From NCBI GenBank assembly GCA_947625305.1, contig CANQNW010000001.1, positions 124,001-188,000 of the forward strand: a stretch of 64,000 nucleotides of DNA, in the 5' to 3' direction. Position 1 is the stretch's first letter. Each line of letters starts with the position of its first letter. Shown here piece after piece: positions 60,951 through 64,000 of this stretch. Under the pieces are notes generated by a model. The model was not told where the DNA came from. It did no database searches and saw only the letters and a list, made by a program, of their open reading frames with translations. The position numbers were made by a program, and so were the translations under genes. Source of the DNA: Candidatus Gastranaerophilales bacterium (GTDB lineage: Bacteria; Cyanobacteriota; Vampirovibrionia; Gastranaerophilales; Gastranaerophilaceae).

Positions 60951-61811
60951 CTATTTAAAAATCCGTTCAAATTGAGAATTTTCAAATTTAACCGGATTCT
61001 CGGGATTTGAATAATCAGTTCCGATTTTACATTCCTTCATAGGTCTGTATTTATTATAATATTTTTCTATAACAAGAATTGAATCATAAAAAGCTAACGA
61101 GGCAATTTCTCTGTTTAATTTTTTCAATCTGTCAATTTCACTCATAGAAACCTTATAATTAAATTTTAAAATATAATCAAAATGCAAAGCATCTATTATA
61201 TTTTTAAAATATTCAATTGATGATTGTTTCTTTTTATAACCGCCCTGATAATTTTTCCAATAACTTGCATGTAAATCTTCAACAATATACAATCCGCCGT
61301 TATTTAATTTCGGGAAAAATAATTCAAATGTCTTTATAACATCGGAACATATATGCGAACCGTCATCAACAATGATATCAAAATTCATATTTTCGAAGTT
61401 TTTTTCTACAAAATTTTCATCTGAAGCACTTCCGATAAATACCTCTATATTTTCGTTGTTATATTTGTATTCAGCACATTTTTTATCAATATCAATCCCT
61501 ATTATCTTTGAGCCTTTAGGCAGATACTCTCCCCAAATTTCAAGAGATCCCCCTTTAGATACACCTATTTCCAAAAGTCTAACGGGTTTATTCTCTTTTA
61601 AAAATACATTTAAATATTTATCATATACATGCAGGTATTGCTCCCACTTGCAAGAATAGAGATCTTTATGATTTTTATAAACCTCATAAAACGAATCCTT
61701 GGAGTAATTTATATATTCCAATTGATTATTTGTATTTTCATCATATTTTTTATCAGGATGTTTACAGCCTCTTAATTTATCAATAATTTTTTGTCCTAAT
61801 TCCCAATTCAT
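60951..61811 (-). CDS. Class I SAM-dependent methyltransferase
   Basis: 286 residues from ATG at 61811 (GGGAG site). The SAM-binding core is RLLEIGVSKGGSLEIWGEYLPKGSKIIGIDIDKKCAEY, then FDIIVDDGSHICSDVIKTFELFFPKLNNGGLYIVEDLH, like macrocin O-methyltransferase/cephalosporin hydroxylase-type sugar methylases. The longer frame beginning at 61916 is rejected because it would run through the promoter and its C10 tract. A surface-sugar methylation role fits, but the acceptor is unknown. Expression is likely switched by the homopolymer in the promoter. Confidence 0.82.
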   Translation of the reverse strand: MNWELGQKIIDKLRGCKHPDKKYDENTNNQLEYINYSKDSFYEVYKNHKDLYSCKWEQYLHVYDKYLNVFLKENKPVRLLEIGVSKGGSLEIWGEYLPKGSKIIGIDIDKKCAEYKYNNENIEVFIGSASDENFVEKNFENMNFDIIVDDGSHICSDVIKTFELFFPKLNNGGLYIVEDLHASYWKNYQGGYKKKQSSIEYFKNIIDALHFDYILKFNYKVSMSEIDRLKKLNREIASLAFYDSILVIEKYYNKYRPMKECKIGTDYSNPENPVKFENSQFERIFK

Positions 61812-61845
61812 AATTATTACTCCCATTATGTCGAAATTAAACAGA

Positions 61846-61876
61846 ATTCTACCACGGGGGGGGGGAATTTTGTAAA
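61846..61876 (-). promoter_or_regulatory. Phase-variable-type promoter with C10 tract in the spacer
   Basis: Minus strand TTTACA (61876-61871) and TAGAAT (61851-61846) are separated by 19 bp containing ten consecutive C (G10 on the plus strand, 61856-61865). Loss of one or two C residues would give 18 or 17 bp, nearer the optimum. Long G/C runs are otherwise absent from this AT-rich window. Confidence 0.65.
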
Positions 61877-61944
61877 GAGAAAACTTTCGAATTTTAAAAA
61901 ATAAATTTCTGTACATTTGATGAAAAAAATTATAATATATGCTT

Positions 61945-64000
61945 ATGAAAAAAGTTAGCGCATATGTTCATACTCACTGGGATAGAGAGTGGTATCGGGA
62001 ATTTGACGAGTTCAGATTAAGGCTGATTGAAGTTTTTGATGATGTTCTTGATATGCTTATATCAGGTGAACTGCCTTGTTTTTACTTTGACGGGCAAACT
62101 GCCGCTTTAGAAGATTATCTTGAAATAAGAGGCGAAAAACTCCCGTTAATAAAAAAATTAATAAAAGAAAAAAAACTGAGAATTGGCCCTTTTTACTGTT
62201 CATCAGATAGTTTTTTGGTTTCAGGCAAATGTCTTATGAAAAATCTTGAACTTGGTATAGACTACGCAAAAAATCTTGGTGAAACGGAATTTATAGGGTA
62301 TATTGCAGACAGCTTTGGTCACAGTAAGGATATTCCGATATTACTTAAGCACTTCAACATTGATAAAGCTTGTCTTTGGCGGGGTTTAGGTGATTTAAAA
62401 GCAGATCTTGACTGGAACGAAATAAAAGTCACAAATCTTATCCAAGGCTATTTTCAGGATTTTTTAAATCTTGATAAACCTATTGAAGAAAAGGCGCAAC
62501 TATTAAAAAAATATCTTGATAAAATCGCCTTAAAGAGCGGGGAAAATGTCCTTTTACCAATCGGAGCAGACCACTTGGCAGCTGCAAAAAACTTAAAAGA
62601 ACAAATAAAAGCATTAAATAAAATTTATTCCGAATATAAAATAGACATAGCGACTCCGTTTGAATATTTTGAAAAAATTAAATCAAGACAAAAAGTAAAA
62701 GGCGAATTTTTAGAAAATTCCCTAAACTTTATTTTGCCCGGGGTTTATTCAACAAGGCTTGATATAAAGCAGAAAAACGCACACTCTCAGCATATTTTAA
62801 CAAATATAGCTGATCCCCTGGAGCAGATAGGGCGGAAATATTATAAAACAAAAGACAGAAGTGCAGAAATAAATTACGCATATAAAATGCTTATTAAAAA
62901 TCATGCACATGACAGTATTTATGCCTGCAGTACCGATAAAGTCTGCGATGAAGTTACAGCAAGGTATGAAAAAGTAAACACCGTTGCAAACGGAATAATA
63001 AAACGTACAATAAGAGATTTATCAAATGACAATGCGCCTTTAGCTGTCTTTAATCTTTCAAAATACAAATACTCAGGGATTGTAAAAGTATTCACCGATA
63101 AAAAGTTTGACGGAGTAAAAATCTCTTCAAAAAAAGGATTTTGTGATGAAAAACTTTATAACATTAATGAAATCCCCATAACAGAGGACTATACGACAAT
63201 TAATGAATATCTGATAGACGTAAAAAATCTTGAACCAATGTCTTTAACACATATTTCTGGTAAAAATTTATGCACCGAACAATATCTTAAAAAAGGTAAA
63301 AACTTTATTGAAAATAAAAATATCAAACTTGAAGTAAAACAAGGTAAAATTACGGTTACGGATAAGATGACGGACACTAAATATAATGATTTTATTACAA
63401 TAACAGACTTAGCCGATATAGGTGACAGCTATAATTTTGGGGCATTAAAAAACGATAAGCCCCTTAAGGCTGAGTTAAAATCAGCTGAAATTACAAAGTC
63501 TAATCCCTTAATGGCTGTAATGAACCTTACTTTTAATATAAATATCCCTTCAAAATCAACAAATAAAGGAAGAAGTACAAAAACCTGCAAGCATAAAATA
63601 ATCGTAAATGCAGTTTTATACAATCAGGCTCAACACCTTGAATTTAAAGCAAATTGGGAAAACAAAAGCAAAGACCATATTTTAAAAATAGGGTTTAATT
63701 TAAAAGAAAAAATATATTCAACTATAAATGAGGATTTATTTTCAACGGTTGAGCGCAAATTTAATCCTGATTTTGATATTTATAAACAAATCCCCGCCCC
63801 AAGAGGCAAAGAAATAAAACCTAATACCTCTCCCATGCAGAGATTTATGCTGGCACAAGGGTTCGGGCTTATTACAAAAGGCTTAAATGAGTATGAAATA
63901 AACAAAAATACGGTAAATTTAACCCTGCTTCGTTCAATTGGTGTAATATCTAACCCATATAACCCGACAAGAGGAACACCCGCAGGCCCGCCTATAGAAA
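61945..64000 (+). CDS. GH38 alpha-mannosidase / mannosylglycerate hydrolase, 3' truncated by window end
   Basis: At least 685 residues; the frame is open to the right edge. The N-terminus MKKVSAYVHTHWDREWYREFDEF carries the HxHWDREW metal site (H9/H11, D13). The nucleophile region is YIADSFGHSKDIP with D122, and KNHAHDSIYACSTDKVCDEV is the second metal-histidine block. These are retaining alpha-mannosidases of GH38, bacterial MngB/glycan-degradation type. A TATAAT at 61931-61936 ends eight bases before the ATG, so the mRNA may be leaderless. Divergent from the methyltransferase, with promoters back to back. Confidence 0.9.
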   Translation, partial: MKKVSAYVHTHWDREWYREFDEFRLRLIEVFDDVLDMLISGELPCFYFDGQTAALEDYLEIRGEKLPLIKKLIKEKKLRIGPFYCSSDSFLVSGKCLMKNLELGIDYAKNLGETEFIGYIADSFGHSKDIPILLKHFNIDKACLWRGLGDLKADLDWNEIKVTNLIQGYFQDFLNLDKPIEEKAQLLKKYLDKIALKSGENVLLPIGADHLAAAKNLKEQIKALNKIYSEYKIDIATPFEYFEKIKSRQKVKGEFLENSLNFILPGVYSTRLDIKQKNAHSQHILTNIADPLEQIGRKYYKTKDRSAEINYAYKMLIKNHAHDSIYACSTDKVCDEVTARYEKVNTVANGIIKRTIRDLSNDNAPLAVFNLSKYKYSGIVKVFTDKKFDGVKISSKKGFCDEKLYNINEIPITEDYTTINEYLIDVKNLEPMSLTHISGKNLCTEQYLKKGKNFIENKNIKLEVKQGKITVTDKMTDTKYNDFITITDLADIGDSYNFGALKNDKPLKAELKSAEITKSNPLMAVMNLTFNINIPSKSTNKGRSTKTCKHKIIVNAVLYNQAQHLEFKANWENKSKDHILKIGFNLKEKIYSTINEDLFSTVERKFNPDFDIYKQIPAPRGKEIKPNTSPMQRFMLAQGFGLITKGLNEYEINKNTVNLTLLRSIGVISNPYNPTRGTPAGPPIE

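Follow-up and report, generated by a model that had tools for sequence, protein, structure and literature searches.

A run of ten C residues between the -35 and -10 elements of a gene for a likely sugar O-methyltransferase is probably a contingency locus, one of about 70 apparent poly-G/C switches spread over the same genome. The genome is a Candidatus Gastranaerophilales MAG (1.97 Mb in 26 contigs, about 30% GC). Members of the Gastranaerophilales inhabit animal guts; they are related to cyanobacteria but do not photosynthesize, and most are uncultured.

In the mechanism that we propose, slipped-strand mispairing at replication would add or remove one C in the tract, and tract length would set the distance between the -35 and -10 elements: 19 bp at C10, 18 bp at C9 and 17 bp at C8. 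The altered spacing would change transcription of the methyltransferase gene, presumably with higher expression at C8 or C9, so that cells of one population would come to differ in the methylation of their surface glycans. For most of the approximately 70 switches, the mode of action would be a frameshift within a surface-glycan gene; for a minority, including that of the methyltransferase, it would be promoter spacing. If this is correct, such a set would provide many combinations of surface glycans per population, which bears on phage attack, immunity and the coexistence of strains. It would also mean that consensus genomes give a wrong picture of the glycan genes that are intact, and that a large set of poly-G/C switches exists in a lineage that kept MutS.

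Promoter and flanking genes

The locus lies in a window of 64,000 nucleotides from this genome. On the minus strand, the layout is TTTACA-AAATT-C10-GTGG-TAGAAT. The -35 element TTTACA (61871 to 61876) and the -10 element TAGAAT (61846 to 61851) are separated by a 19-bp spacer (61852 to 61870) that contains the C10 tract (61856 to 61865; G10 on the plus strand). TGG precedes TAGAAT, giving an extended -10 element, TGGTAGAAT. Random window flanks placed around a C10 match the promoter score of this locus with P = 0.00065. On the same strand, a Shine-Dalgarno-like GGGAG (61820 to 61824) is found 8 nt 5' of the ATG at 61811, which begins the methyltransferase gene (60951 to 61811). The tract, the spacer length and both hexamers are exactly as they had been described in a sequence-only reading of this DNA.

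That reading had also called the downstream gene a sugar-type methyltransferase and the divergent gene a GH38 mannosidase, and both assignments agree with our searches. The methyltransferase matches the Pfam family Methyltransf_24, and matches rhamnosyl O-methyltransferase/CmcI below the cut-off of that family. Among solved sequences, it is closest to 3ssm and demethylmacrocin O-methyltransferase, and its product is therefore likely a sugar O-methyltransferase, as judged from sequence. The GH38 alpha-mannosidase gene occupies 61939 to 63999 on the plus strand and extends beyond the end of the window (737 amino acids in total). A TATAAT at 61931 to 61936 on the plus strand is a possible -10 element of this gene, without a good -35 element; the C10 tract is outside its spacer.

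Comparison with a sister species

The only close ortholog of the methyltransferase locus that we found is in a sister species (G027) that is 91% identical. Its tract is C9 and its spacer therefore 18 bp, with the same -35 and -10 elements. The sequences TTTACAAAATT and GTGGTAGAAT are identical between the two genomes at this locus, and divergence begins directly after the -10 element. Close to the position of GGGAG before the methyltransferase ATG, the sister species has AGGGG.

Differences of this kind also occur at other loci. When orthologous tracts were paired at a minimum of 83% identity, 6 of 10, the methyltransferase tract included, differed in length by exactly one base between close relatives. 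A transketolase-like gene is ON in the present genome (C10) and OFF in the sister species (C9), and an MBOAT gene is OFF here (8 bases) and ON there (9 bases). A 14-bp duplication (TTATTATACTTACC) was observed beside a tract in a third species of the genus (G030) relative to the present genome (L027 around 1838, orthologous L142).

Genome-wide set of tracts

Poly-C/G tracts were counted by using pattern searches and fetched genome stretches, and expected counts were computed from the base composition of the window (30.3% GC) over 1.97 Mb. C/G runs of 10 or more bases number 25 in the genome (0.02 expected), those of 9 or more number 65 (0.14 expected), and 71 tracts of 8 to 11 bases were read in the fetched stretches (approximately 0.9 expected). 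The length-matched control DCCCCGCCCC, in which a single G interrupts the C run, matches seven times, versus the 65 runs of at least 9 bases.

Lengths of 9 (54%) and 10 (32%) predominate over 8 (8%) and 11 (6%) among the 183 tracts of three congeneric species, and the distribution is much alike in each species. It is also close to that published for Campylobacter, in which 53% of tracts have 9 bases and 26% have 10 (PMC6321876); the Campylobacter peak has been ascribed to an insertion bias at G8 and a deletion bias at G11 (PMC8355987). Tens of tracts are common in genomes of this family, compared with 0 to 6 in other families of the order, and a small number of families elsewhere in the class have 20 to 46; the counts across the family pool this type of tract with a second type from other genera. 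In the sister species, 8 of 55 tracts lie at most 150 bp from a contig end, where 1.3 are expected (P = 7e-5). Such placement is expected if reads disagree on tract length, and is suggestive of mixed lengths, but sequencing slippage could break contigs at tracts as well.

Tracts in this genome, the sister species and the third species share their flanks, whether they are coding (in both senses) or intergenic: an A-rich segment at -20 to -17, C/G at -14, the G run, and then T/A and A. Moreover, run length varies with the base that follows: 9 is commoner than 10 before T (73 to 10), and 10 is commoner than 9 before A (48 to 25). The P value for this rule (2e-12) is only a guide, because related tracts were counted separately. 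Possibly a sequence-specific process that recognizes the flanks creates the tracts of this genus or holds them at 9 to 10 bases, and contingency loci would then be seeded by a system of their own; we regard this idea as unlikely.

Genes associated with tracts

The tracts reside in or just 5' of surface-glycan genes. According to Pfam, these genes encode glycosyltransferases (GT2, GT8, Gly_transf_sug and RgpF), FkbM and other methyltransferases, LicD, MBOAT, WbqC, TupA, UDP-galactopyranose mutase (GLF), PIG-L deacetylase, AlgX, nucleotidyl/cytidylyl transferases with PEP mutase, DegT aminotransferase, short-chain dehydrogenases, radical SAM enzymes and kelch proteins. By analogy, this repertoire is of the kind seen in known phase-variable sets; the association with surface-glycan genes is read from the Pfam list itself, and not from a formal comparison with background.

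Most intragenic tracts in this genome are G-sense. In frames of at least 150 amino acids, 24 of 49 tracts are in the state that gives the longest frame and 25 are not; the corresponding numbers are 20 versus 18 in the sister species and 25 versus 23 in the third species, with some of the OFF calls reflecting only small differences in length. About half of these tracts are thus OFF in each of the three species. A one-base change adds more than 50 codons to 18 tract-associated frames of this genome. In three OFF states, a Pfam domain is split at the tract between two frames: GARS_A (profile positions 1 to 91, then 92 to 190), MBOAT (72 to 254, then 244 to 329) and WbqC (1 to 89, then 98 to 217).

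Other promoters with tracts

Eight tract-in-spacer promoters in this genome score at least 12.3, versus 0.33 in random flanks. That of the methyltransferase ranks fourth among them, and the sister species has a single strong one, its ortholog. Others have the forms TTTACA-18-TATAAT and TTGACA-16-TATAAT. A family of promoters with the form TTGnnn-18/19-TGGTATAAT precedes kelch and other genes, and one member of this family has G8 in the present genome and G9 in the third species.

Only strict scores are informative in this respect. At a loose promoter score of at least 9.5, tracts are not distinguished from random flanks (23 G-sense matches, versus 15 in the null). We also considered a general -10 element right behind every tract and rejected it, since beyond the subset of true promoters only TA is enriched.

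The sequence-only reading had proposed a phase-variable promoter of the type known for porA, opc and fetA. Given the C9 ortholog with its conserved -35 and -10 elements, the genome-wide set and the other promoter-spacer tracts, this proposal now gains support at the level of sequence, and the promoter switch would be one of many in the genome.

Alternative explanations

One feature of the locus counts against a promoter switch: an upstream reading frame also passes through the tract at C10. Translation of the methyltransferase might instead start at an ATG farther upstream (61916) and run through the tract, which would be ON at C10 and OFF by frameshift at C9. The frame open through the tract at C10 has 321 amino acids here, a frame of 313 amino acids would be open at C10 in the sister species, and frameshifting appears to be how most of the other tracts here work. 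However, the segment from the tract to the ATG at 61811 is not evolving as protein. It differs between the two species by seven nonsynonymous changes and one synonymous change in 15 codons, unlike the body of the gene (37 nonsynonymous and 31 synonymous in 286 codons), which argues that the segment is an untranslated leader and not an N-terminal extension. The Shine-Dalgarno-like sequence before ATG 61811 in both species and the unchanged -35 and -10 elements also speak against a translational switch, and we consider it unlikely. That the tract instead mainly serves the divergent mannosidase gene is very improbable. This gene does lie in the G-sense direction favored by most tracts, with 73 nt from the tract to its start, but its likely -10 element (61931 to 61936) is 65 bp past the tract, which places the tract outside its spacer, and promoter scoring of the tract region in the G-sense direction gives only a low value (8.2). 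Furthermore, the next-closest members of the genus that we examined have the mannosidase gene but lack both the methyltransferase and the C10 tract. In most relatives the methyltransferase gene is missing from this locus, which leaves no basis for an empty-site comparison.

The tract is known from a consensus MAG sequence, and any single tract length is open to homopolymer error in assembly. Some MAGs of the genus (G007 and G008) carry poly-C runs of over 25 bases at contig starts that look like sequencing artefacts. It could therefore be argued that no switching occurs, and that the tract either arose by error during sequencing or assembly or is fixed and without function. This is very improbable: the independently assembled sister species has a tract at the same place with C9, and about 70 tracts with a nonrandom choice of genes and frameshifts that split domains would be hard to obtain from error. 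The shared flanks of coding and noncoding tracts, together with a run length that varies with the next base, are also what would be expected of a recognition motif of fixed geometry for a factor that binds or modifies DNA. Switching accounts better than such a motif for the one-base differences between orthologs and for the out-of-frame state of about half of the intragenic tracts. In the mutase (GLF) gene, the tract takes the place of a native TGGGGA at a conserved Trp-Gly codon pair, which gives the protein one more glycine than most of its orthologs have, and this too runs counter to a recognition motif. We judge that explanation to be decidedly unlikely, and favor length-dependent switching of the methyltransferase promoter.

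Relation to known systems

In Neisseria, the promoters of porA, opc and fetA have a homopolymer between the -35 and -10 elements (PMC2791445). The methyltransferase locus resembles them in its poly-G/C run within the spacer, in a surface-related gene and in one-base changes that alter spacing. It differs in that it belongs to another phylum, involves a predicted glycan-modifying enzyme instead of an outer-membrane protein and is one of a set dominated by apparent frameshift switches, and in that its effect on expression is a predicted one. The divergent fimbrial genes hifA and hifB of Haemophilus influenzae, as cited in PMC2791445, share one repeat in a combined promoter region. Variable repeats thus lie between divergent genes in both cases, but according to that citation the hif repeat is in the promoter of both genes, whereas the tract studied here is in the methyltransferase promoter only.

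As in the Campylobacter phasome, there are tens of poly-G/C tracts per genome, mostly within ORFs and in surface-glycan genes, with a length peak at 9/10 and an intergenic minority (PMC6321876, PMC8355987). This lineage, unrelated to Campylobacter, has MutS1, and its tracts show a shared flank motif and a length that depends on the flank. C. jejuni is without functional mismatch repair (PMC8355987); since MutS is present here, slippage could be rarer. Loss of mismatch repair was considered as a cause of the tracts and rejected, because MutS1 was found in all 117 genomes searched, with a match above the cut-off in the present one. In three genera of the family (g18, g19 and g22), the best match to MutS1 falls short of the family cut-off; most of their genomes have few or no tracts, with exceptions. 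A search of the open-access literature, with subscription papers and preprints outside its range, found no paper that joins Gastranaerophilales or Melainabacteria with phase variation. The principle is known from Neisseria and Campylobacter, and the lineage appears to be new.

A second class of tracts

Other genera of the family, represented by G082 (L220-L249) and G075 (L250-L269), have a second class of tracts, of the form G-C10 to C12-G, with up to about 180 per genome. These tracts reside in the leader sequence of genes that are prepilin-like (...GGGG...FTLAEVLITLGIIGVV). At C10, the leader and FTLAEV are out of frame, and lengths of 8 or 11 bring them back into frame. Along long blocks of contigs, the C strand stays the same regardless of gene orientation, as if it were tied to the direction of replication.
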